From: Pandoraea communis
GTDB taxonomy: Bacteria; Pseudomonadota; Gammaproteobacteria; Burkholderiales; Burkholderiaceae
Assembly: GCF_902459745.1 (NCBI RefSeq)
Contig: NZ_CABPSJ010000006.1
Coordinates: forward strand, 1 to 64,000
Reading direction: 5' to 3'
Length of the DNA stretch: 64,000 bases
Shown here: positions 48,481 through 64,000 of the stretch, piece after piece
How the letters are laid out: each line of letters begins with the position of its first letter
How positions within the stretch are numbered: position 1 is the stretch's first letter
Notes under the pieces: generated by a model
The model's input: the letters and a program-made list of their open reading frames with translations, nothing else
The model's database searches: none
What the model was told of the DNA's origin: nothing
Position numbers and translations under genes: made by a program

Positions 48481-50928
48481 TCAGTTCTGCCGCAGCATCG
48501 TGTTTCCGGTGCCTGTTGTCTTGGGCTTGGCGTAAAACTTCACGAGAAATGCCGCGGGGATAGGTGCGATGTTCTGGGCTTGCCCGAATGTGAGCAAGTG
48601 TCGCCAAATCGCGGCCCTATGAAATCCACCTAATGGAAATGAGGCCTGTATTCGTGCCACCACATCGCCTGGCATGGCAGCTAACTGTGCGTTTGTTGTC
48701 TCTCTCGCACGGTCTAACCGCCCTGCTAGTTCCAGCACGCTAACGGAAGCAAAATTCTCACGCGTGGCCGAAATGATGTCTCGCATAACGGCTCGCAACG
48801 ACTCGGACTTACCGGTCTCCCTAGCCTCAAAAATCAGTTCTGCGTTCACGTCCACGGGGAGTTCGATGGCCTGGCATGCTTGTATGATTTGGCGAAGGTC
48901 AGTAGCGGTCTGCCCTAAATGCTCCGTTGCGTGTCTATGAGCGTGCTGCCAGAGCGAGTGGTAGTCCGTGAACAGTACCGAGCCCGTTAGCGCCGCGAAG
49001 AACATCCCCGATTCAAGCGCAAATCCCTTTTGTACAAGGAAGCTTCCACGCTTGTTATCCGCGCAGGGCACCAGCACGGCGTATGGGTCGTTTGCAATCA
49101 TTTCCTTCGCAGCAGTGACCAGTGCTTCGATTTCTTCTCGGGAAGCTCCGCGCCGCTCGGTTCTGAAATGAGCCGCCAATGCTCCTTCGGGCATTCGATT
49201 TAATGCGACCAAGGTCTTGTATTTCATCGACCACATTCGGCGGAGGTCTTCTCGGGCAACGACCTCATCAGGTCCCTTAGTCCGCTCCTCCGCAGCTTTC
49301 ATCGAGGCCCGTGCGAATTCCACGTCGTAGTCACCAATGTCCGGGACCACATGGACGATGCCGTGAGCGATAAAGGGCCAAAGCGCGAGCATTAGCAGAA
49401 CATTCTCAACCGTATTGACTTTGTGTAAGCCCGGCGATTTGGTCGGACTGAATTCGGGTTGAAGAATTGCAGGATTCGGGAATGGATTCGCTATAACAAT
49501 CTCGTCGAAGAAGCCCAGCATGCCTACGACCGTACTATTCGCCGACCGCGCTTCGAGTACCCCCATGTAGACGGCCCGAAATGTGTCCGCACGAGGCCGG
49601 GGCAACAATTCTGACAAATTGGTATCAATCGGCCATAAGTCGGCTACGACCTGGTGGATTTCTTGGACCTGCTCGTCGCTAATGGTCGCTCGCACGTCGT
49701 CCCACGTCTTGTCAGCATCGAGTTCCAAGATGTGTTCCATTGCCCGGCAGAACATCAAATTCCGCTCACGTATCCCGAACACCTCCCAGGAGGGGCGTTG
49801 CTCCGCGGGGATGTCCTGACAACACTGTGCGAAAACTCTACCGCTGCCGCAACCGCACGGGTCTTCGGGCGCTAGGTCTGTCCGTATTTCCTTTCGATGT
49901 AAGTATTCGTGGGCTCCGGAGGTGCGACCATATGCGTCTTGATAATGGACGTGCCCATCATTGAACTTGATGAACATCTCGCCACCAAATTCCCAAAGGT
50001 GGTCTTTCGGGAGAAGTATGTTCTTGATTGAATCCCAAGGCCCAGCAAACACCTGTTCGGGATACAGCCAACCCTTCTCCGCAGCGGCAAGATATCGTTT
50101 TGCTCCTTCCTTGAGCACCACGTTTATGGCCGCCACCTCCTCTCGTGCTAGAGCTCGTGTTCGTATGTGTGCGTAAGAGTGCACGTAACCATTGCCGCGG
50201 AAACGCGCGTTTGTTCGTTTCGCAATCGGGTTTGTTGCGTCCGGATTCTTTGCGTACTCAACGTGCGTCAATATCAAGCAGGTGTTTGCGTTAAGTGGGA
50301 ATATGGTTTGCGTCCCGGCGAGTTCGACGCGTGCTGAGTTTGGATACGCACATGCCGGCGAACCAGAACCTAATGCGGGGTTGTATGTTGTGACGGGGTT
50401 GTCTGTAAGAAGAAACTTAATATCTGACTCATCGGCGGTGACAATCTCGCGAACCGACTCTGCCCACATCTGGCAATACATCGTTCGTAGGCTCTGCATT
50501 TCCCTCATTAGCTCGACATGGCTTAGCTTGGGATACGACGCCTTTATCCAGTCGAGCCCCTTGGGCGTTCTCAACTTTTGAGCGTCCATGTAGGCAAAGA
50601 AATCTTGGAACGCCTCATGCATTTCCGCAGGGTCCCCACGCGCAAATGCACTCACAGCGTCGGCACCTTTGGCATCGATTGGGCCGAACAGAAGTCGTTC
50701 AATCTCGTCGTTGATGTCCTCACCAAAGATAGTTGTGTACAAATCAGTCTCGTGAAAACAGCGCTTTGGCCCCCAACTCTGAATCGACGATTGGGTATTT
50801 ACGACACGCCCGTCGGGCAACGTTCTCGTTTCCGGATGCTTGTCCAAAACTACAAACCTTGATGCACCCGGCGCAAGAAATCCGCCTTGATACCATTGAG
50901 GGACATAATGATTGACTCTAGTTTTCAT
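48481..50928 (-). CDS. DUF4238 and SEC-C motif protein
   Basis: This 815-residue protein begins with a DUF4238-like domain (NHYVPQWYQGGF at the start, later LLTDNPVTTYNP and a Phe-Pro-Leu segment, ending about residue 280). A SEC-C zinc motif follows, EDPCGCGSGRVFAQCCQ (Cys 358, 360, 369, 370). The C-terminal ~440 residues are unassigned, mostly helical and contain no recognised motif. DUF4238 proteins are common in islands and defence contexts but lack a known activity; SEC-C is a small zinc-binding module. The start has GGAG upstream. Codon use is less GC-rich than in the core. Confidence 0.8.
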   Translation of the reverse strand: MKTRVNHYVPQWYQGGFLAPGASRFVVLDKHPETRTLPDGRVVNTQSSIQSWGPKRCFHETDLYTTIFGEDINDEIERLLFGPIDAKGADAVSAFARGDPAEMHEAFQDFFAYMDAQKLRTPKGLDWIKASYPKLSHVELMREMQSLRTMYCQMWAESVREIVTADESDIKFLLTDNPVTTYNPALGSGSPACAYPNSARVELAGTQTIFPLNANTCLILTHVEYAKNPDATNPIAKRTNARFRGNGYVHSYAHIRTRALAREEVAAINVVLKEGAKRYLAAAEKGWLYPEQVFAGPWDSIKNILLPKDHLWEFGGEMFIKFNDGHVHYQDAYGRTSGAHEYLHRKEIRTDLAPEDPCGCGSGRVFAQCCQDIPAEQRPSWEVFGIRERNLMFCRAMEHILELDADKTWDDVRATISDEQVQEIHQVVADLWPIDTNLSELLPRPRADTFRAVYMGVLEARSANSTVVGMLGFFDEIVIANPFPNPAILQPEFSPTKSPGLHKVNTVENVLLMLALWPFIAHGIVHVVPDIGDYDVEFARASMKAAEERTKGPDEVVAREDLRRMWSMKYKTLVALNRMPEGALAAHFRTERRGASREEIEALVTAAKEMIANDPYAVLVPCADNKRGSFLVQKGFALESGMFFAALTGSVLFTDYHSLWQHAHRHATEHLGQTATDLRQIIQACQAIELPVDVNAELIFEARETGKSESLRAVMRDIISATRENFASVSVLELAGRLDRARETTNAQLAAMPGDVVARIQASFPLGGFHRAAIWRHLLTFGQAQNIAPIPAAFLVKFYAKPKTTGTGNTMLRQN

Positions 50929-52583: not shown

Positions 52584-53069
52584 ATGCCTCGTTCGAGTCA
52601 TCGCTCGAAGAACCTTGTTACACTTCTCTACAAACCGCAGCCTGGGCCGCGACGGGTACTTGCGATGTCGAGAGCCGATGCAGAGCGGTTACCCGCCATC
52701 CCAACTGTTGCGGTAATCTCCATTACGGCGCCAGAGCGCCCGCCAGCAAAGCTCAGCGACTTCAGGAACGTCTTGCGATTGAGTTTTTCCGATGTGGACC
52801 ACCTCAACCCAGCCATATCAACCCGAGCACGAGAGAAGCTGGCGAACGCGTTCACGCTTCGGCAGGCCGATGAGATACGTGCCTTTGTGGAAGGTCTTCC
52901 GACTTCGATTGAGTCAATTGTCGTGCATTGCGAGGGAGGTTATTCCCGCTCCTGTGCAGTAGCTCTTGGACTGCATCGCCTATATGGCTACCAAGTCGAC
53001 ATTGAAGCGATGACGCATGCGAATCCGTCGGTCGTGCAGCTCATAACAACGCTACATATCGGCATGTGA
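52584..53069 (+). CDS. Tyrosine/dual-specificity phosphatase-like protein
   Basis: This 161-residue protein carries the cysteine-phosphatase loop VHCEGGYSRS (Cys 116, Arg 122; C-x5-R-S), so it should form a phosphocysteine intermediate. A general-acid Asp could be the one in SDVDHLNP, about 45 residues earlier, as in compact dual-specificity phosphatases. GGAGGTATGT lies directly before the ATG. It is the last gene of the three-gene operon beside the HTH regulator. Its substrate could be phosphotyrosine, a nucleotide or RNA 5' phosphates; sequence does not tell. Confidence 0.75.
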   Translation: MPRSSHRSKNLVTLLYKPQPGPRRVLAMSRADAERLPAIPTVAVISITAPERPPAKLSDFRNVLRLSFSDVDHLNPAISTRAREKLANAFTLRQADEIRAFVEGLPTSIESIVVHCEGGYSRSCAVALGLHRLYGYQVDIEAMTHANPSVVQLITTLHIGM

Positions 53070-53784
53070 CATTCCCCCGGGCGGCCGGTAGTTCGGGTGC
53101 CCCTCTGTCCCCTCTCCCCTAGCCGCCGCCCAGAAGAAACGAGCGTGATTTCCGTACACCTCGGAGGCTTGGTTGGCAATATCGAAGGCGGTGGCCAGCA
53201 CCAGCGAGGCAGGTGCGTGACAATCGCGAGGGTGTCTTGATATAGCTCTTCGACTTGCTCGTCGGTGGCCTGCTTATGCTCAACTCTGGCTGGCTCGACC
53301 TGCCTGTGCGCGAGACGTTCGTGTCTGATAGACCTGAGGTCCGCCAGTACTGAGGCGCACTCGCCGTTCTGCATGTACTTTCGTGTAAGCGCCAGTACCT
53401 TGTCCCGTTTGGGCGACAGCGCGTCGCGCATCAAGCCCTCGGGGTCAGGACCAACTCGAACGCGTTCGGCGCGTTCACGCACGAGAGCGTCGAAGCATCG
53501 CTCGTCGCGCAGAATCTCCGAAATTGCGGTCAATCTCACAGCCTGCTTGTTAGCATCCCAAACACGTGAGACCGCTAGCAGGAGCTCACGCCTTAGCGCC
53601 ATGCGCACGATTTGGAACGTATGAGTCGCGCACGAGGTTCCCATTCGTGCCTGAAGGTCGATGTCGTGGCCGTCGGTTTCCAACTCTCGTGAAGCATGAC
53701 AGCGAGAACCGCCTCGTCTTCTGCTGCTCGCACGAGCGCCTTCAATCTTTCAATGGCCGACGCCACATTCTCGTCTGTCATCAT
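53052..53784 (-). pseudogene. AbiU2-like abortive-infection gene with two frameshifts
   Basis: Three reading frames read in order give one AbiU2-like protein. Frame one (ATG 53784, GAGGA upstream) runs to HESWKPTA. Frame two resumes at HDIDLQARMGTSCATHTF and continues through LLAVSRVWDANKQAVRLTAI and RHERLAHRQ to DTLAIVT. Frame three continues PASLVLATAFDIANQ and EVYGNHARFFWAAARGE. One base appears lost near 53668-53672 and one gained (or two lost) near 53205-53225. The RHERLAH segment fits the Rx4-6H motif of HEPN RNases, and AbiU2 is HEPN-related. The family call is from memory. Its 3' end overlaps the convergent phosphatase gene. Confidence 0.65.
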
Positions 53785-54053: not shown

Positions 54054-56249
54054 CTACGGTCGGACCATATCGAGATAACCGCGAATCGGCAGACCTCGTT
54101 TGTCGAAGCGAGGACTTCCGCCGATAGACCGCAGCACTGACCTCGATAGTAGCTTGTTGCCTGCTATACAAGACGTCTCCGGCATCATCACGCAATCGGG
54201 ACATGCACCGCCGCGCTCCGTGCAAAGCGAACCCGTACCGCACTGGGTTGCCTTGGAGGCCAGCAACGCGGTCAGCATCGCAGTACCGGCGTTGCGCCAA
54301 AGTGCGGACAGATTGCCCAAGTCCATCGTCGTGCCGTTTCGGTACACCACGAACGCCAAGTCTGCCGGGAAAATGTACTCGCCCAGTGAACCAAGGTCTA
54401 AGCCCGAATATTCGGACACGTGCTTCATCAGCAGATGCGAGTAGCTGTGCAACAGCGTATATAGGTAGAAGTAGACTGGCGGCGACGAGGTTTCAGGTAG
54501 GTTGTCCAGGAAGGGGCTCATCGACCGCGCTGCAGCTAGCAGGCCAGCGCCAGTCTTCTCGCCCGTATTTAATGTGAACATGTCCGGGCACTTGAGGGTA
54601 TGGAGCCATTCAAGAACGAGTTCTTCTTTGAGGCGCACGTACAGCGCTTCGTTGCCCTGCGGCACAACATAGACGGGATACCGCATCGTGTCATTCTGCT
54701 TGACTGGCGGAAACAAGTTCAAGCGAACGGGCATGTCCGCGCCGCGTTTGTCTCGAAGGACGGGCGTTGACTCCATTCGCGAATAGCCGAAGCTAAAGCG
54801 GCAAAGGTCAAACTCACGGATGAGGCCCATATCCTCTAAGCCCAGCTTGTCCAGCAGGACTCGCGTGGCCGCCTGCATCTGGTCCGTTTTGCCCTTATCC
54901 TCCGGTGCCAAGTTCTCGTCAAGCCTCGTGAATGATACATAGGGCTTCTTCCCGTTCGTCCTCGTTTCGACGTCGAGGCGTACACTCTTCAATGTGGCAT
55001 GTTCGATGGCGAGGCGGAATGGGTCGAACTTCGACGCGAACATCGACTGCCTGTTCTGGATGTTCGACAAGACCGCGGTGGGAAGGTCTGACTTGGGTAA
55101 CAAAATCTGGCGCCGCCGCAGGTCATCTAGAACCCGTTGCTTGTGACTATACGCAAGGTCGATAGAACCCTTCAGCGTTGCACGCATGGCCTCTGGAAAT
55201 CCCTCGAGGGTGCGAATCTGCTCTACGGCCGCCAGATAGTCAGCGAGGTCTTTGGCACACTCCGGCTTGTCCTGGCAGGCGCTCTGAACGTCCTTGTCGG
55301 TGAGGGAATGAACGGCGAAGCCGTACTGCTTGGCGACGAAATCCCTCAGTTCTGCCTCGTGCCCAGGTCGCAATCGCGTCAGCAACTGCTGGCTCCCGTC
55401 CTTGAAGTCGATGAAGAGGTCCGATTTGACATAGTAGGCGCTGGACGCACGGTAAGGTGCTGCCTGCATACGCACCTCAGTGAGCCGGTCTGGCCCCATC
55501 GCCGGTCCAAGGATGCGCAGGGTGTCGCGGTCATTCTGCAGCCACTTGGGCGACAGCGGCTTATCGCATGCGGCGCACTCGAAGAACCAATCACCGATGC
55601 CAGCCGAGCGCCGGTTCAGCTTGAACTGGAAGCTGCCGCAAACGCAGCTGTCATAGCGCTTGACGACTTTGGCGTCACGGTCGCTCCAGTGCCACTGCCC
55701 CGGGAAGGCCGCCTCCCAGTGACCAGACCAGTGCACGAATATGACGTCCAACTGCTCCCAGTCGCAAGGTCCTTTCCTTTTCGGGTTAGGGCAGTGCTCA
55801 GGGGTTAGCCTTTCCAGATTCCTGTCCAGTTCCGCGAGTGTCTCGTAGCCTTGGAACATCCCACACGTCCTGCACACGAACGTCAGGGGTGCCGGCGAAT
55901 ACTCCATGTGAGACGGGCGACAGAGGTAGAAGCGGTCTTGACCCGGCAGTTGAAATTCCGTCCTGCTCGAGTCCAGCATAGCGTGGTCAACGCACTGGGC
56001 AGGCAGGATGTGCGGTTTAGTTGAGTCACCATCTCGCGCGGACGACGCAGCACGGAACCACGCACGCCCAAGTTCGTTCATCCGCTCGAATACCAAGTCC
56101 ATGGTCGACTCGGACAGCTGAATTGGCTCACCTGCCGACGAACGAGCGATGCATGCCCCCATACCTCCTTCAAACGTAAAGAAGCTTTCTGGTGCGTAGG
56201 CCGTCGCAAGCTGGTTGCGAGAGCGGTTCATTGTCTTAGCTTTGGCCAT
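54054..56249 (-). CDS. drmB: DrmB-like DUF1998 protein of a DISARM-like system
   Basis: This 731-residue protein has the DUF1998 domain at its C-terminus (about 590-700). Segments seen are LLHSYSHLLMKHVSEYSGLDLG, GEYIFPADLAFVVYR and a cysteine cluster CGTGSLCTERGGACPDC followed by PETSCIAGN. The N-terminal half carries zinc-type pairs (FVCRTCG near 126, CVCG, CAACDKPL). In DISARM, DrmB is the helicase partner. The gene begins 14 bases after the helicase stop with AGAGAGG upstream, so they are cotranscribed. DUF1998 is also fused to helicases in Druantia and YprA-like proteins; the split arrangement favours DISARM. Confidence 0.85.
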   Translation of the reverse strand: MAKAKTMNRSRNQLATAYAPESFFTFEGGMGACIARSSAGEPIQLSESTMDLVFERMNELGRAWFRAASSARDGDSTKPHILPAQCVDHAMLDSSRTEFQLPGQDRFYLCRPSHMEYSPAPLTFVCRTCGMFQGYETLAELDRNLERLTPEHCPNPKRKGPCDWEQLDVIFVHWSGHWEAAFPGQWHWSDRDAKVVKRYDSCVCGSFQFKLNRRSAGIGDWFFECAACDKPLSPKWLQNDRDTLRILGPAMGPDRLTEVRMQAAPYRASSAYYVKSDLFIDFKDGSQQLLTRLRPGHEAELRDFVAKQYGFAVHSLTDKDVQSACQDKPECAKDLADYLAAVEQIRTLEGFPEAMRATLKGSIDLAYSHKQRVLDDLRRRQILLPKSDLPTAVLSNIQNRQSMFASKFDPFRLAIEHATLKSVRLDVETRTNGKKPYVSFTRLDENLAPEDKGKTDQMQAATRVLLDKLGLEDMGLIREFDLCRFSFGYSRMESTPVLRDKRGADMPVRLNLFPPVKQNDTMRYPVYVVPQGNEALYVRLKEELVLEWLHTLKCPDMFTLNTGEKTGAGLLAAARSMSPFLDNLPETSSPPVYFYLYTLLHSYSHLLMKHVSEYSGLDLGSLGEYIFPADLAFVVYRNGTTMDLGNLSALWRNAGTAMLTALLASKATQCGTGSLCTERGGACPDCVMMPETSCIAGNKLLSRSVLRSIGGSPRFDKRGLPIRGYLDMVRP

Positions 56250-56263
56250 CTCTTTTACCTCTC

Positions 56264-59200
56264 TCAGCCGCGTGCTTCCGTTGCACTGTCTGTCGAATCG
56301 ATGTCTGCTCCGGAACCTCGCCGGATAAAGGTCATCGCTCGCGCGGTCATACCCTCCTTCACCGTCCTAAACGAGGCATCGATGCCTGACTCGCGAATTA
56401 GCCCAGGCTGATCCACGTCCCGCAGCGACGTCATCGGCCTCAGCAAGCTGTTTCGCATGGCGAAGAATTTAACTAAGCGCGTTGTGTTTACCAATCGGTC
56501 GACGCCGAGGTCCTGCTGGTAGTGCGTGAGTTGCTGCTTAAGTAGCGAGCGGCAATAGCTCTTACTTTCCGCCGACGGGGAGAAGGACAATCCAAGCGCC
56601 TTCTCCATGAAGTTCTCGGTGGCCTTCATGTTGACCGGAGCCACCAGAAAGTCCCGCACATCCGGTGCCATTGCGAACGTGGGACTGTTGCCTTTCTTGC
56701 CGTCGTCGGCAGCACAAAGACGCTCGATGGCGTTCATGCCACAGACGTACTCCTGGAAAAAACTGGGCATTACCCTCACGAGTGCCTTCTCCGCCCATCG
56801 GTCGACAGCAGCCGGCAAAATCATCCGCTCGAGGAAGCGGTGAAAGATGTCATGAATTTCAAGCACGAACCGGTCTCGATAGCGTTGTGGCACAGGCACC
56901 AGCAGCGAAAAACCAACGTGCGTTCGACCGACCCGCGACGAGGCCTGGATGTACTCAGCAATGTCCGACGGGATACCAGCGAAAAACATTGCGTTGAACT
57001 CCTCCACGTCAACGCCGTGAGAGATTGCGGAGGTCGCGATGACCGAACGGAGGGTACTGTTGAGCTCCGGGAAAGGTGCGTTGACACCGACGCGAGTCTC
57101 GGCTCTTCGGACAATGTCTTGAATATCTGCGGCTGAAACGGCGCCAGAAATGAGCTCGGAGTTCAAAACGTGGCGGGCAAATCCGTCAGCCTGGTGGAGC
57201 TTCTCGAATTGCACCTTCTCGGTGTCGATAACTTGGTCACCGCCCTTCTTGTTTGTGACGTAGGTCAGCGCGATGCGGTGCAGGTCCACCAGCGTTAGCA
57301 GCGTCGCCGCATCGGCACCCTGGAGGAGCCGAACGAACTGAGCCTGGAGGGGGCCGGGCGAAGTCCACCGAATCAACTCGGCGCGTGCGGCATCCTCCTT
57401 AGCTGAATCTTCACTACGCAAGCCCTCATACAGCCCGGTGAGCATGAGATGGTAGTGGCCAAGTACCGAAGCCATTGCTACGGTGTGGCGGTGTCCGTTG
57501 GTCAGGACGGAAGCATAAACGCGCGTCCAATGGCTGCGCAGCTCGATTTCATCCTCGGGAAGGGCCGCCCGTTCAGTATCATTCGACGTAGAGTCTGGTT
57601 GGAGGGGCGTTGAATAGAACGAGTCGTAGAGTGTCGGCCCGGGGTAAGGGAACTGAACAGTGGAATCGCGCTGGTAGAGGTTGAGCATCTGCCGTTGCGG
57701 TTCGCTTACCGTCGCCGATGCGGCGATTACCTTAATTTTTCGCCTGACTAACGAGTCTGGCTCGTACGACAAATGGCCCTTCAGCAGTGGCGCGAGTTGG
57801 TCAAACCCGGCTTCGAGCGCAGACTCGAATAGTCCGGAGAAAGTGCCTAGAGACTCGTCCAAAAGGTGCGCCTCGTCTTGGATAAGCAAAGCCGGGAACG
57901 GGTCAAAGAATCTTTTCTCGCCCGACGCGAAGGATGGGAATAGCGCGCGCGTGCCTGCGCCAGGGTGCCCATCCCAATCCTTAACCTTCATAGGCACGTA
58001 TAAGCGCTCGCTGCTGGTTTCGACCAAAGGTGCAAAACCGAACATGCCAAAGAATTTGCGGATAGTTCCCTGCGACTGACCGATGGCGGCCAGCTTGTCG
58101 ACCGTACCCAGTAGAACGGACGGTGCTAGGCCATAGATGTCCTCGTCTACGATATAGAAAGGCAGTGGGGTCGGCTTGTCGAAGCGCGCGTTCCAGGAAC
58201 ACTTCTCCTTCGGCGCCGTGCAGTAATGCCCCATTGCATTAGCACCTGCGCCGGAACGGCGGCGGAGCGCCAGCAGACTGCCGTCTTTGTTGCCGCAGAA
58301 CGGACACGACGCGAGCTTCAGCCAGCGCTCCCTAGCGCTCTTATAGGGCTGAACATCCCTTTGCTTCCACTCGACGTCGGGGGGAACCTCGTTATCGCTG
58401 GGGACCTCGTCATATCCCTCTTCGGAATGCCAGTTGGGAGTGTTGCTGCCGCCAACCCAAAATCCGAGCGAGAATGGGTCGCCGGAGTGTCCTCGCAAAT
58501 GCCGAACCTCTTCGGCCGCGCCCATAATTGCGAAAGTCCGGCGCGCCTGCTGCAGCGTGAGTAAGCGCAGAGGGTAACGCATCAACGCGGAAACGCCCCG
58601 GTGCTTTCCCCGTAGCCGGTCGAGAAAGAGCACGAACACAAGTAGGCCGAGAAAGGCCTCAGACTTACCACCGCCGGTTGCGAAGTACAGCAACGTAACG
58701 GCGTTGGCGTGCTCAGCAACCTCGGGCGTGTAGAAGCTGTGAAACTCGGGAATGCGCGTCGCGAATGCCGGGATGGACGTCAAGATGAAAGCGAGCTGGA
58801 ACAGGCGCCATTCATAATAGCCCTTCGATTTGGCCACCTTGGCCATGGCAGTGTTCATCGAGACCCATGCCTCGAACGGGATTCCAAGTGGCGACTTCTG
58901 TACTCCTGGCCCGCTCCAGTGAGTGCGAGACTTCTCAAGAATTTCTAGGCCGCATCGAATAGTGCTCAACTCGCGATGCCATGCCGAAAGGTCCAGGTGT
59001 AACTTCTCGCGCTCCGCAGCACGCTGCTCGGCGGCGCTCGGCCCCTCGAGCCCGTGTTCCACCGGATAATTCTTAACGTTGTTTAGCCACTTCTCATAGG
59101 TGCTAACAAGAGGTTTAAGGCCAGTAAGGCAGTCAGGTTGGGCCAGTTTCCCGATGTTGAGTTCGACGCCTGCGTCGTTTGGAATGATTCGCGGCAAGAC

Positions 59201-60466
59201 GTAGCGTGGTGACCAAGTTGTCGCGAGTCGGTGCAGTGTGCCGTCGGTGGTGAGGGTGATGCCGCCGTTAAACCCCAACGCTGGGTACTTGAGGTACTGG
59301 TTGTACCGATAGGACGGCTTGACTCGGTCCAAGTGGAGAAAGTGATGGTCCGCAGCAGGAATTGTCACGGAAACCGAAACCTGAAAGAGCGCGGGCTCCA
59401 GCTCCTTGAAATTGGTCTTCGTGAGTGGAGCAGTCCAGTTCTCCAAGGCCACATGAACAGTTGTGCGGGTTGCGTCAACAGGGTCAGCCACTGCCTGAAC
59501 CACCCAACGCATGTCGATTTTCGGTATAAGCACCGCAAGACTCGCGCCGCGAACCGCCTCCAAGTAGCGTTTCCAGTCGCGCACGTCGGAGGGACGAACT
59601 CTCGCTCGACGGTAGCCCCACAACTTCCCGCCCATCTCGGGGTCCGTATTGACCGCCCAATCCGCTAGCTGCGTAGCGATGGCCTCGTTAAGGGCTTCGG
59701 TTGCCTTCTGGGCATCGACCTCCGCTGTTGCCGGCGAAAACTCGAACGAGGGCAGAACAAGCTCGAGCCGGAGCCATTTCGGCGGCGGAAGAATATCGTC
59801 CACCAAACTATCAGACATGGCGATGCCGGCAGTAACCTCCTGAGTTGGGCGTGATTCGCCTTGCTCGCTGTTCTCGCCAGTCTCGTCTTCGGCGCCCTCG
59901 GCTTCTCCTCCGACGTCCGTAGACGTGCGGTCCAACGTGTTGTCGAAGGGCAAGCCCATCGATTCATACACGCCTTTGCGTGCCTCATAGCTCTTCACGG
60001 CCCAGTCCGGATTCGTCTTGCCGCCAGGCAGCGCCGTGATGAGCTTGGTCAACGCGTCCTTGACCTTGCCGCGAATATCGGTGCGCGCCTCTCTAGTCAG
60101 CGGAAACGTGGCTTCCAGCCGCCCTCCAGGCCTCACCTCCTCCTCGGTCGGCAGGATTCGGACGTATACGGCGCCAGTCAGCGATACGCATAGAGTTGTG
60201 CTCATCGCAGATGAGCGGATTTGAAAGTCCATGCCATGCGCGCTGATGCGAATGGGATCCGCTTCCTCGTCACCGCCTCGCTCCTCAGCGGGCATCGGCA
60301 CGATGAATTCCGACATCAGCGCCACGCTGGGTTTTGTGCCGTAAATGACCTTGTAGAATTCACCCCGGCCGGCAAGGCGCGCCGACAGCCCATTGAGTAA
60401 GCTGTCTACAACGGCCTCTTTATAGGCCGGGTGAATGTTGCGTGGATTCTCACTAAGGATGGGCAC
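56264..60466 (-). CDS. drmA: DrmA-like SF2 helicase of a DISARM-like system
   Basis: This 1400-residue helicase starts at GTG with AGGGGA 5 bases upstream, overlapping the previous stop by 14 bases. Residues 1-590 form a long N-terminal region. The helicase core has Walker A YFATGGGKSEAF (~595), DEAH box LIQDEAHLLD (~865), motif III ASATVSEP (~918) and motif VI ASSRVGRTHVG (~1175). A zinc insert CPFCGNKDGS with CTAPKEKC lies near 725-750. Size, insert and the adjacent DUF1998 gene fit DrmA of DISARM, which acts with DrmB on incoming unmethylated phage DNA. All core motifs are intact. Confidence 0.88.
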   Translation of the reverse strand: MPILSENPRNIHPAYKEAVVDSLLNGLSARLAGRGEFYKVIYGTKPSVALMSEFIVPMPAEERGGDEEADPIRISAHGMDFQIRSSAMSTTLCVSLTGAVYVRILPTEEEVRPGGRLEATFPLTREARTDIRGKVKDALTKLITALPGGKTNPDWAVKSYEARKGVYESMGLPFDNTLDRTSTDVGGEAEGAEDETGENSEQGESRPTQEVTAGIAMSDSLVDDILPPPKWLRLELVLPSFEFSPATAEVDAQKATEALNEAIATQLADWAVNTDPEMGGKLWGYRRARVRPSDVRDWKRYLEAVRGASLAVLIPKIDMRWVVQAVADPVDATRTTVHVALENWTAPLTKTNFKELEPALFQVSVSVTIPAADHHFLHLDRVKPSYRYNQYLKYPALGFNGGITLTTDGTLHRLATTWSPRYVLPRIIPNDAGVELNIGKLAQPDCLTGLKPLVSTYEKWLNNVKNYPVEHGLEGPSAAEQRAAEREKLHLDLSAWHRELSTIRCGLEILEKSRTHWSGPGVQKSPLGIPFEAWVSMNTAMAKVAKSKGYYEWRLFQLAFILTSIPAFATRIPEFHSFYTPEVAEHANAVTLLYFATGGGKSEAFLGLLVFVLFLDRLRGKHRGVSALMRYPLRLLTLQQARRTFAIMGAAEEVRHLRGHSGDPFSLGFWVGGSNTPNWHSEEGYDEVPSDNEVPPDVEWKQRDVQPYKSARERWLKLASCPFCGNKDGSLLALRRRSGAGANAMGHYCTAPKEKCSWNARFDKPTPLPFYIVDEDIYGLAPSVLLGTVDKLAAIGQSQGTIRKFFGMFGFAPLVETSSERLYVPMKVKDWDGHPGAGTRALFPSFASGEKRFFDPFPALLIQDEAHLLDESLGTFSGLFESALEAGFDQLAPLLKGHLSYEPDSLVRRKIKVIAASATVSEPQRQMLNLYQRDSTVQFPYPGPTLYDSFYSTPLQPDSTSNDTERAALPEDEIELRSHWTRVYASVLTNGHRHTVAMASVLGHYHLMLTGLYEGLRSEDSAKEDAARAELIRWTSPGPLQAQFVRLLQGADAATLLTLVDLHRIALTYVTNKKGGDQVIDTEKVQFEKLHQADGFARHVLNSELISGAVSAADIQDIVRRAETRVGVNAPFPELNSTLRSVIATSAISHGVDVEEFNAMFFAGIPSDIAEYIQASSRVGRTHVGFSLLVPVPQRYRDRFVLEIHDIFHRFLERMILPAAVDRWAEKALVRVMPSFFQEYVCGMNAIERLCAADDGKKGNSPTFAMAPDVRDFLVAPVNMKATENFMEKALGLSFSPSAESKSYCRSLLKQQLTHYQQDLGVDRLVNTTRLVKFFAMRNSLLRPMTSLRDVDQPGLIRESGIDASFRTVKEGMTARAMTFIRRGSGADIDSTDSATEARG

Positions 60467-63218
60467 TTGTTTCCCCTTTCTTGCGTGTAGTCGCACGAAC
60501 CGGAGGCGGCACAACGCGTTCAACTAGATACGCACAGTGCAGCGCCTCCTGCTGGAGGTCCCTGATGATGGTCGCAGGTACCTTGCGGTACACCGCAGCA
60601 CTATCAGGCTGGAATAGTATTTCGGCATACCGGGCGGCCAGTTCTCGCCCAAGATGTTGGTTCAAACGTCGCGCGTTTCGGACAAAGACCCAGTGCTGTT
60701 CGGCGGCTTCGTCGCTGATTCCCAAGGCCCTGCAGAAGATTTTGAAGTACTTGGTATCCTGGGGCGCGTGAGCCCGCGTGTCGTCTGCTGCCTGCGGCGC
60801 CAACCAGTAGTACACGCGACTCGGTTTGCACTCTGTGGCCTTAGGGTCAAGCTCGACCATCTTGGCGTGAATCTCACGCGCCAGCGCCGACCGATTCGCG
60901 GACTTGAAAAGCAACTTGCAGCGCCTTTGCACATCCTCATGGTAAAGCCTGAGCAGCATCCGCACTGGGTCCACCACAGAATTCACACCATCGCCATTTA
61001 ATTGGAGCGACGACTCCAGCTTGGCACGTAGTTCGTCGCTCATGTCGAAGATGAAGTCACCGGGCTCAATTTGGCTTGCCGCCATGCGCCGGAATGGTGG
61101 GTCTTCGTCAGGCGCGTAACGGTAGACCCAACCCGAGCCATACGCCGTGCCACCGCCTTCGAGCTCGAACTTGAAATACGCCTGTTCAGTGCCTTGGGTG
61201 TTCTGGCCGTTTTCGTCAAATTTGAACGTCAGCGACATTTCGCGAAGTTTGCCGATGACGAGAGGGTTCGGAACCTCAGCCAAGCGCCGCTCGAGTTCCG
61301 CGGCCAGTAAACCAATACGCCCTCGGTAAGCCTTGAACGCATCTATCGCTTTCATGCTGGTTAGCGTCTTTAGAGTGGCTTCAGCTTGTCGATAGGCGAC
61401 CAAAACTGCAGTGCCATGCGGCACTTCCGGACGTGTCATGAGGATGCGAAGTACATCGGGGCTGATACCGACGAACACGAAGTGCTTCCCTTTGCGGTCG
61501 CCAGCGAGTGTCTTGCTGACCGCGGAGAGTGTGTGCCATTCAATGCGAGCTTCGGCAGCAACCCAGTCGCTGCCCAGCTTCCGCACGAGAAAGCGATGCG
61601 CGAGCAGCACATACTTGTTGCTTGGCAACACCAGCGAAATACCCTGCCGACCGACGACAGCGTGTTTCCGAACGTCAGCCAGCATGCGCGACGCCATGGG
61701 CGTAGCATCGTTCCAGTCATCGATGAGCTGCTCGGCACGCGCAATCGCCCGTTCAACGGATTCGCGAATCTGGTTCAACGCGCCGGAGGCAAGCGCTGCC
61801 ACAAGGCCTTCCTTCACGGGCGTCCACGCATTCTGCTGGCTGCCATAGTCGCTCTCACCGGCCTCTGCCGACATTGCGGTCAGGTCGGCGTACCCCGCCG
61901 GCATGTTCGACAGTCGCAAGATATACATGCACGCTTTGAGCAGCGCTTGGTGGGCGGGGCTTTCGTCGTTGTCCGCGGACGCTGCCAAACGTTGAAACGC
62001 CAGTGCAAGCTGGGATGCATCGCGGTCGACAATACGGACGCTAAAATTTGAATTGCTGCGCTGAGCCGGACGCCAGCTAGGAGCAACCGGATGCGCAGAG
62101 AGCAGTGCTTCCTCAGCTTCCGCCGACCACGCTTTCGTTGAGAAGGTGACATTGGATTCACCGAGTTGCGCTCGCAGAATGAAGAAAGTCTTCGGGTCAT
62201 CTGTCACGATGACGGCCCCGACATCGGCGAATCCACTTTCCCGCGCAACCGATAAGAAGTCGGGAATTCGTTTGACCGCGGCAAAATTCGTGCGCATCGC
62301 GGCCTCTGTCGCGTCAAGCAGCAAGACCTCTGGGCGCCCAAGGCCCTTCAATGCCGGGGTGGTCAATGCCGCACGCCAGGCACCCTTCTTCACAGTGTGG
62401 TGCACAACCATAAGGGCACCCGGTGCCTTGTCAGGAGCATCCCACTCAAGGCTGACCTTCTCGCGCAGGTCGCGCCGATACGCCAGGCGCTCGACTTTCG
62501 CGAGGGTGCGTTCGAGCGGATTGGAGACTGTCGTGGTCCAGGCGCGTTTGGTGGGGTCAAAAATGAACGTTGGAATGAGTTCGGCGAGCGATGGGTCTGG
62601 AGAGTCGGGTGTGTGCTGACTGAGGTCGTTTAGAGCCCAAAGTGCGGCCAGCATCGCTGGCGATGCCGTGCAGGACTTCACTTCGGTCGTGCCATTGTGC
62701 TGCACCCACAGACTGCGATAGAAAGCACTCAGTATCTCGCGGTCGGCAACGACGCCATGGAGCGGCGCGCGACAGGCATGGGTACCGGGATAGAGCAATG
62801 TCCGCATGCCACGCAAGTCTTTGACAAAGACCCTTTCGATGTCTGCTAGGGCATGCAACAGCGGCAAGAACGTCAGCTTGGCAGGCCAAACCAAGCAAAG
62901 CGATACCCCGCCTTCGTCAGCAGCAGCGAGAACCGTGCTTACGAGCTCCTTTGCCCAAGGTTGCGGAGCGATAGGCTCGCCGGCTGCACGAGAAAGATAG
63001 GTCAGAGGCGCAATTCCGGCACGAATCTTTGCCCATGTCCGCTCTGGACGCGTTGATGCTAGCTTTGCCGGGGGGGCGTCGAGGACCACTTTGGCTTTGG
63101 TCGGTTGCCGCTTCCGCCCAACTGGCTGGGCCGTGAGCTTGCGAGCGAGTTCGACACGCCTTTCGCGTGCTTTTTCTTGGTCGGCTTTGCGTTCTGCCAG
63201 TGATTTCAATCGAGACAT
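60453..63218 (-). CDS. Large uncharacterised component of the DISARM-like operon
   Basis: I do not recognise this 921-residue protein with confidence. It begins with a Lys/Arg-rich helix (about 1-45). Residues ~115-150 (LCLVWPAKLTFLPLLHALADIE, LRGMRTLLYPG) and LLLDATEAA (~310) vaguely recall degenerate helicase motifs, but no Walker A or DExx box is present. A central helical region contains RSSNFSV-like and GISLVLPSNKY segments. The C-terminal third has a compact domain around SQIEPGDFIFDMSDELRAKLE followed by a helical tail. It overlaps both the methyltransferase and helicase genes. By position it could be a DrmE-like or new DISARM component. Confidence 0.75.
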   Translation of the reverse strand: MSRLKSLAERKADQEKARERRVELARKLTAQPVGRKRQPTKAKVVLDAPPAKLASTRPERTWAKIRAGIAPLTYLSRAAGEPIAPQPWAKELVSTVLAAADEGGVSLCLVWPAKLTFLPLLHALADIERVFVKDLRGMRTLLYPGTHACRAPLHGVVADREILSAFYRSLWVQHNGTTEVKSCTASPAMLAALWALNDLSQHTPDSPDPSLAELIPTFIFDPTKRAWTTTVSNPLERTLAKVERLAYRRDLREKVSLEWDAPDKAPGALMVVHHTVKKGAWRAALTTPALKGLGRPEVLLLDATEAAMRTNFAAVKRIPDFLSVARESGFADVGAVIVTDDPKTFFILRAQLGESNVTFSTKAWSAEAEEALLSAHPVAPSWRPAQRSNSNFSVRIVDRDASQLALAFQRLAASADNDESPAHQALLKACMYILRLSNMPAGYADLTAMSAEAGESDYGSQQNAWTPVKEGLVAALASGALNQIRESVERAIARAEQLIDDWNDATPMASRMLADVRKHAVVGRQGISLVLPSNKYVLLAHRFLVRKLGSDWVAAEARIEWHTLSAVSKTLAGDRKGKHFVFVGISPDVLRILMTRPEVPHGTAVLVAYRQAEATLKTLTSMKAIDAFKAYRGRIGLLAAELERRLAEVPNPLVIGKLREMSLTFKFDENGQNTQGTEQAYFKFELEGGGTAYGSGWVYRYAPDEDPPFRRMAASQIEPGDFIFDMSDELRAKLESSLQLNGDGVNSVVDPVRMLLRLYHEDVQRRCKLLFKSANRSALAREIHAKMVELDPKATECKPSRVYYWLAPQAADDTRAHAPQDTKYFKIFCRALGISDEAAEQHWVFVRNARRLNQHLGRELAARYAEILFQPDSAAVYRKVPATIIRDLQQEALHCAYLVERVVPPPVRATTRKKGETSAHP

Positions 63219-64000
63219 TGCGACATCCGAGCTATTTGTTGCTCTGTCGAGTCACTTCTTGGAACTAGGCCGAAAGCTATATTTACCGTTTCGTCCATCG
63301 ACCTACGACAGGCCGCGGCCTCGATGAGCGCCTGTGGGTCGGGCAGTGCGAGTTGCTTGAGTTCAAACGCCGACACGTTTGTGGCGCCGGAGATGCATCG
63401 GAAATATCGGTCGACCGCCCGTGCGCTCAGCAGCTTGGCAAGCTTCGTGGGAGGCAGCACCGGTTTTTCGCTCACCGCCTCTATGATGACAATATGGTTC
63501 TCACCGATAAATCCGCCATGGGCTTCGAAGACCCCCGGCGATACCGCTGCCGCCACCAACCGACGAGGCTGGTCATTTGACGTCACACGTTGCATGACCA
63601 CGCAGGGCGAGGTAACTACCGATTTATGTCTCTTGTTGCCCAAATCCACGAAGCGATGCTCACCGTCGTAGGAAGGCTTATCTTCCAGCCGAACGATTCC
63701 GCCACGAACAATATCCCGTGACCACATCAACGGCATAGCCGTATGCGCCTTAGCTCGGCGAGCATCATTGAGTGACTCGAACTTGGGGCGCTTGTCGCGG
63801 TTCCATACGTATGCGCCGATGCGCACGCGATAACCGTAGTCTGACAAACGGAACCGCGAGAGAGCCGCCTTTTTGAGAAGGACCACATCGTCGACCGAAC
63901 GGGGAATGGGCCACACGGCGCCGGCGTTGGGAAGCACACATTCACCGACATTCGTGTACCGACCAGCAACTGACACTACCGACACGTTGGCTTTCAGGTA
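63206..64000 (-). CDS. Adenine-specific DNA methyltransferase, C-terminal part (cut by window edge)
   Basis: The frame is open to the last base, so the N-terminus with the SAM-binding and NPPY-type motifs lies outside the window. The 265 visible residues resemble the C-terminal specificity domain of Eco57I-class N6-adenine methyltransferases: SPCVVMQRVTSNDQPRRLVAA, GFIGENHIVII and LSARAVDRYFRCISGATNVSAFELKQLALP. In DISARM the methyltransferase marks self DNA. Its stop overlaps the next gene by 13 bases, so it is translated with the operon. The exact class (DrmMI-like) is inferred from context. Confidence 0.75.
   Translation of the reverse strand, partial: YLKANVSVVSVAGRYTNVGECVLPNAGAVWPIPRSVDDVVLLKKAALSRFRLSDYGYRVRIGAYVWNRDKRPKFESLNDARRAKAHTAMPLMWSRDIVRGGIVRLEDKPSYDGEHRFVDLGNKRHKSVVTSPCVVMQRVTSNDQPRRLVAAAVSPGVFEAHGGFIGENHIVIIEAVSEKPVLPPTKLAKLLSARAVDRYFRCISGATNVSAFELKQLALPDPQALIEAAACRRSMDETVNIAFGLVPRSDSTEQQIARMSQCLD

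Follow-up and report, generated by a model that had tools for sequence, protein, structure and literature searches.

A DISARM-like operon of Pandoraea communis with an adenine-type methylase and a probable, strongly diverged relative of DrmE

Does the four-gene operon at the end of the first 64,000 nucleotides of a Pandoraea communis contig (NZ_CABPSJ010000006.1, contig 6 of NCBI RefSeq assembly GCF_902459745.1; this whole stretch is called the window below) belong to a known class of DISARM, and what is the large protein encoded between its methylase and its helicase? A sequence-only reading of the window had described four minus-strand genes coupled by overlaps or a 14-base gap and had proposed a DISARM-like defence operon, possibly of a distinct subtype. 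The frames and overlaps were confirmed (Table 1), with a 13-base overlap between the methylase gene (M) and the gene of the 921-residue protein (X) and a 14-base gap between the helicase gene (A) and the last gene (B). The window holds just the 3' part of M, whose full length lies on the contig. For A, the longest frame opens with a TTG at 60523 (56264-60523, 1419 aa), but the better start is probably the GTG at 60466, preceded by 'aaaggggaaacaa', since conservation with relatives starts there; from this GTG, A overlaps X by 14 bases. The four-gene operon is real, with all frames open and under purifying selection. Chance can be set aside because the genes recur together in other genomes and dN/dS lies at 0.03-0.13. 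By gene, four pairwise comparisons gave 0.08-0.13 for M, 0.08-0.11 for X, 0.06-0.07 for A and 0.03-0.05 for B, values that are rough because dS is above 1; M and X were the faster-diverging pair in the same comparisons.

Table 1. Genes of the operon and neighbouring features (window positions unless another stretch is named; L001 and L002 are two 20-kb stretches)
Feature	Position	Strand	Basis or place
M, N6-adenine DNA methylase, 597 aa	63206-64000 in the window; full gene contig 6 63206-64999 = L001:13206-14999	minus	
X, probable remote DrmE, 921 aa	60453-63218	minus	profile-profile match; adjoins drmA
A, DrmA-type YprA-family helicase, 1400 aa from GTG 60466	56264-60466	minus	PADLOC, NCBIfam, PDB 7s9v
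B, DrmB-type protein, 731 aa	54054-56249	minus	PADLOC, NCBIfam, PDB 7s9v; C-terminal cysteine cluster
Lamassu-type genes LmuB, LmuC, LmuA	contig 6 65162-68698 = L001:15162-18698	minus, same strand as the DISARM genes	just upstream of M
Three consecutive tyrosine-recombinase-like genes	L001:19510-20000 and L002:2-4522	plus	beyond the Lamassu genes
HEPN AbiU2-like protein	52988-53683	minus	3.6e-15
DUF4238 protein with sub-threshold SEC-C motif	48481-50928	minus	beside the operon

The helicase had been called DrmA-like, and our searches agree. A matches the PADLOC DrmA model (1.8e-87), the DrmA of the solved DISARM DrmAB complex (PDB 7s9v, 5.7e-48) and NCBIfam DISARM_DrmAS (4.5e-104, under the curated cut-off at 349.4 of 950 bits), and it contains TGGGKSE, DEAH and RVGR. 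B is matched by PADLOC DrmB (6.9e-14), by NCBIfam DrmB_fam under its cut-off (3.2e-11) and by the DrmB of 7s9v (3.9e-4), and carries a C-terminal cysteine cluster of the form CGTGSLC...CPDC...C. With both proteins matching the solved complex, the DISARM-like assignment stands. The earlier description of B as a DrmB-like DUF1998 protein holds for DrmB, while Pfam does not bear out the DUF1998 label: B has no Pfam match, and Pfam MZB (PF09369), in our reading the earlier DUF1998, matches nothing in the genome. The first gene had been read as an N6-adenine methyltransferase, in keeping with its matches to Pfam N6_Mtase (3.1e-13) and Eco57I (2.2e-13) and with its NPPY motif of the adenine type; for full-length M the best PADLOC model was MTase_II PDLC03338 (1.8e-177), a non-DISARM model.

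X is matched by no model of Pfam, NCBIfam or PADLOC, so that it is indeed unrecognised by these models, but its DrmE-like C-terminal half means that it is probably not foreign to DISARM. A first comparison with DrmE by single sequences was weak. Alignment of a profile of 16 X sequences to a profile of seven DrmE proteins gave an E value of 6e-13 (score 118.8, 416 columns) over the C-terminal half of X, about residues 430-890. For X residues 60-430 the E value against DrmE was 0.19, and by these alignments the similarity is confined to the C-terminal half, with residues 1-430 outside it. Control profiles of DrmD, DrmA, DrmB, M, DrmC, LmuA and LmuB scored 16.5-22.5 against X (the DrmD profile included one other helicase of locus L028 and missed the DrmD of L027), reversed X scored 28.0, and 20 column-shuffled versions of X scored at most 16.6. 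X also shares the place of DrmE, directly upstream of drmA. The alignment over the C-terminal half, together with the flat controls, suggests that this "extra" protein is probably a remote and strongly diverged relative of DrmE, by which the large component left open by the sequence-only reading is probably, for the most part, resolved.

The strength of the match varies with the DrmE proteins in the profile, four of whose seven members (L024, L035, L056, L060) were admitted by operon place, their similarity being weak or partial. When the profile holds just the three firmest DrmE proteins, the match drops to E 0.0034, or to 3.6e-4 if the X set is enlarged, and a HMMER search from these three finds no X at E<=10. 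Five DrmE proteins gave a profile match of 2.7e-8, and with them HMMER found three X loci (E 0.0074, 0.0092 and 0.51). A DrmE HMM built without X matched X members at best at 1.1e-5 and the window X at 0.013; the seven-protein HMM reached 10 of the 21 X loci at E<=10, with values below 0.01 for four. Searched against 2502 ORFs, the HMM built without X listed 26 rows for 20 distinct genes at E<=10, each directly upstream of a drmA-type gene, and the best E value in the reversed-ORF control was 11. Identity between X members and the DrmE of locus L036 is 13-16% in the joint alignment. Pfam DrmE_C matched none of 13 X members and had nothing in 398 genomes of the phylum; among 12 plasmid records, seven of which carry X, no X reached its cut-off (one of the seven gave E 0.03). 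No relative of X turned up in the viral contigs and phages scanned, nor did the L036 DrmE as query find anything in the viral contigs. An AlphaFold model of X made from alignment A1 (10 close sequences) was unusable, with a mean pLDDT of 42 and a pTM of 0.28. Across 15 X sequences the invariant positions are W111, P112, T506, P507, R634, Y759, W805, F828 and G857.

Part of the region shared by X and DrmE resembles inteins. The joint profile of DrmE and X matches intein structures there (4o1s at 2.5e-4, the RadA intein at 0.0047 and the PolC intein at 0.011). An intein ranks first, weakly, for DrmE alone (0.067) and for the set of 15 X sequences alone (0.16), and none came up at E<=10 with an earlier X profile. 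The matching regions are about 676-733 in the X profile and about 620-720 in DrmE. In strand pattern, the aligned part is similar to Hint domains around their motif 'A..dL.pGD.v', and the intein 'TPSHPV' is lost from the profile. These matches weakly suggest that DrmE and X share a degenerate Hint-like fold that would not be a splicing element.

Whether the 921-residue family accompanies drmAB elsewhere was surveyed, and the two were found together throughout: all 21 loci that encode X have drmA and drmB beside it. Each of the 20 loci with room for one also has an adenine methylase gene (L010, whose contig begins inside X, is outside this count); this gene lies directly upstream of X in 18 and downstream in L014 and L017, on the opposite strand in L014. 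The methylases of L014 (311 bits) and L021 (373 bits) do not outscore the class 1 methylases of L026, L027, L028, L030 and L031 (332-464 bits) and are therefore candidate members of the M family. In a motif survey of 20 loci, L011 not among them, TGGGK[ST]E and DE[AM]H were found in 20 of 20 A proteins, NPP[YF] in 19 of 19 M and the cysteine cluster in 19 of 19 B; the pattern used for methylase motif I was too strict and matched only L014. The PLD nuclease DrmC is encoded in 14 of the 21 loci, with a short copy lacking the HKD pattern in L008. It is absent from six (the window, L003, L005, L006, L011 and L012, of which L005 and L011 look like one lineage) and was not found in L019, a disrupted locus. 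No DrmC or remnant of it lies downstream of B in the window, and the PLD matches elsewhere in the genome (7 rows, the best at 57.8 of 133 bits) are below the DrmC cut-off. The available part of PMC9142583 describes DrmC as apparently non-essential. Possibly decaying copies were seen in Paraburkholderia (L003:12753-16955), where drmA is split over two frames, and in Sinorhizobium (L019:16241-22048), where IS66 elements interrupt drmB. Occurrence is patchy, with 5 of 399 genomes of the order positive, and the loci are also carried on plasmids.

The loci with M and X group together in trees of both helicase-complex proteins. In an unrooted DrmA tree of 29 rows (without two outliers, L025 and the near repeats L005, L008, L009 and L010; L003, L011 and L056-L060 not included) they form one clade with 100/100 support on a stem of 2.19 changes per column. 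This clade lies on the same side as L023, L024, L035 and L036; the class 1 loci with DrmD lie across a 100/100 split, together with the Bacteroidota DrmE locus L037. A quick 35-row DrmA tree agrees, support for that neighbourhood being lower (89). The DrmB tree (26 rows, without L056 and L057) also recovers the clade at 100/100, has L058, L035, L036 and L023 on its side and groups the Bacteroidota DrmE loci L037 and L060 with class 1. The clade thus falls on the side of three of four DrmE-bearing loci for DrmA and three of five for DrmB. The clade as such is firm in these sequence trees, and its neighbours can be read only tentatively because of the long branches of several rows.

According to the available part of PMC9252829, PADLOC needs DrmA, B, C, D and MI for DISARM type I and DrmA, B, C, E and MII for type II. 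The operon shares DrmA, DrmB and an adenine methylase with class 1, but M, at about 600 aa, is Type II-like, unlike the very large enzyme beside drmD in L026, L027 and L028, and the helicase falls in another part of the tree. The sequence-only reading had advised a look for drmD beyond position 64,000; the SNF2-like helicase DrmD was not found among the neighbouring proteins scanned (8 plus 4 more). On these grounds, DrmD not found among the neighbours and the tree position, class 1 was rejected. With class 2 the operon shares DrmA, DrmB, a DrmE-like protein directly upstream of drmA and, in 14 of the 21 related loci, a PLD DrmC. It differs in that an adenine (NPPY) methylase replaces the cytosine methylase DrmMII (no cytosine methylase was found among the neighbouring proteins scanned), that X is too diverged for the searched DrmE models and that the window copy has no DrmC.

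ARMADA also combines a YprA-family helicase with a methylase. As described by Bell et al. (2025; available text of PMC12458937), it has a BrxHII-like helicase and a YprA protein whose gene also encodes the OB-CON-DUF1998 part; in the DISARM branch, the helicase and the OB-CON-DUF1998 part are consistently encoded by two genes. Here A and B are separate, as in DISARM, and no BrxHII-like protein was found among the proteins scanned, and ARMADA was rejected on this gene content. No Dpd-type gene was found among the proteins scanned either, bar weak DpdF matches of helicase A. The same portion of Bell et al. (2025) places many uncharacterised DISARM-like classes in the DISARM-like clade, and ShdA homologues are said in part of PMC10270631 to occur in DISARM-like operons. 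The available portions of PMC12904381 and PMC9716671 contain nothing on the M-X-A-B gene set, and the open literature, covered mainly by title, had no title on an adenine-methylase DISARM with DrmE. In a haloarchaeal DISARM-like locus (L023:7994-10723), the DrmE place is taken by a 910-aa protein with a weak match to a GHKL-type ATPase (0.004, below cut-off) and none to X; this protein is possibly a different component.

The operon therefore fits neither defined class, with no DrmD found, an adenine methylase rather than DrmMII and no DrmC in the window copy. The model searches did not assign it to a known class with all components accounted for, since X escapes them and neither DrmC nor DrmMII is present. 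The earlier claim of a layout outside class 1 and class 2 is correct in that neither class is complete, but the layout resembles that of class 2 and is not an entirely new set of genes, because the C-terminal half of X matches DrmE and X sits in the DrmE place. The distinct subtype proposed by the sequence-only reading is supported by the separate DrmA and DrmB clade, the adenine methylase, the absence of DrmD among the neighbours scanned and that of DrmC in the window. By sequence comparison, we would call the operon a new and so far unannotated DISARM variant that resembles class 2 and would use an adenine mark, with a predicted anti-phage role.

We consider it likely that the operon is an anti-phage system of the DISARM type, from a distinct lineage in which X is a diverged DrmE. 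The alternative closest in content, an ordinary class 2 DISARM without DrmC whose methylase was swapped for an adenine enzyme and which forms no distinct subtype, overlaps with that explanation and differs from it in rank only. The DrmE homology of X speaks for it, methylase type does vary in DrmE-like loci (in the Rubrobacter locus L024 an adenine-type MTase adjoins the DrmE-like gene), and DrmC is absent in only 6 of 21 loci plus the disrupted one; yet the constant adenine methylase, the long and fully supported stem of the clade and the failure of the searched models to reach X argue against it, and we regard it as possible though rather unlikely. That X is unrelated to DrmE and merely occupies its place, the likeness of the C-terminal parts reflecting a shared Hint-like beta-fold, would make this a new class with a new component. 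Such a reading could draw on the N-terminal half without DrmE match, the silence of DrmE_C, the low identity to the L036 DrmE, the dependence of the match on the number of DrmE-like proteins in the profile and the contact of the shared part with a Hint-like fold, possibly common to unrelated proteins. It is less probable still, given that the alignment, about 400 columns long and with flat controls, extends in order to either side of the Hint-like part, and that X and DrmE occupy the same operon place. Some YprA-family helicases act in repair (available part of PMC12458937), but a helicase pair serving DNA repair or other housekeeping is very hard to reconcile with best matches to DISARM DrmA and DrmB, with B as a separate gene as in DISARM, and with patchy occurrence, plasmid carriage and Lamassu neighbours.

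These neighbours suit a defence island. Beside the window M, LmuB (1.1e-88), LmuC (2.7e-4) and LmuA (6.4e-45) were recognised, the Cap4 nuclease domain of LmuA matching at 1.5e-4, below its cut-off. In L006, Lamassu genes lie 13 bases downstream of drmB, and in L005/L011 divergent ones (LmuB 21%, LmuA 27% over 110 aa) lie upstream of M. The loci with adjoining Lamassu genes (the window, L006 and L005/L011) are all without DrmC; in the near clade, Lamassu stands beside three of five lineages without DrmC and none of five with it, numbers too small to claim an association with DrmC loss. The recombinase-like genes match Pfam Phage_integrase at 2.7e-9, 0.0044 and 0.25, the last two below cut-off, which suggests a mobile island. 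No tRNA was found in L001 and L002. An empty-site search with two flanking genes, in 100 genomes each, did not yield the boundaries of the island; in G816, of the same genus and with the best right-flank match, the flanks are on different contigs. The AbiU2-like and DUF4238 proteins are possibly further defence cargo.

How such an operon might work can be outlined. The gene set, homologies, clade, conservation and selection rest on the present analysis; the biochemical steps and the role of X are what we infer. M would methylate adenines in a host motif and so mark self DNA. DrmA and DrmB would form a helicase complex that loads on unmarked invading DNA, the loading substrate in the studied class 1 complex appearing to be 5'-overhang single-stranded DNA; unmodified 5'-overhang DNA is proposed as the DISARM activator in the available text of PMC9142583. 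DrmAB would then translocate and either block the invading DNA or pass it to a nuclease, which in most relatives would be the PLD protein DrmC. Since DrmC is missing from the window copy, DrmAB may here act alone or use another nuclease of the cell. X would most likely be an adaptor that couples DrmAB to recognition of the target or the mark. We know of no described function of DrmE. In the available part of PMC9142583, DrmD and DrmE are among the components left for future study. A bolder version, which we hold to be improbable, would see a third DISARM class of the DrmE type with an adenine mark, a dead Hint domain as binding module and DrmC-less copies that borrow the Cap4-type nuclease of Lamassu.

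By the PADLOC rule quoted in PMC9252829 (available part), DISARM-like operons such as this one would not be counted as complete. If X is a diverged DrmE, as we think probable, its family would widen DrmE to proteins that the searched models do not reach, and the invariant positions of X provide residues that can be tested.
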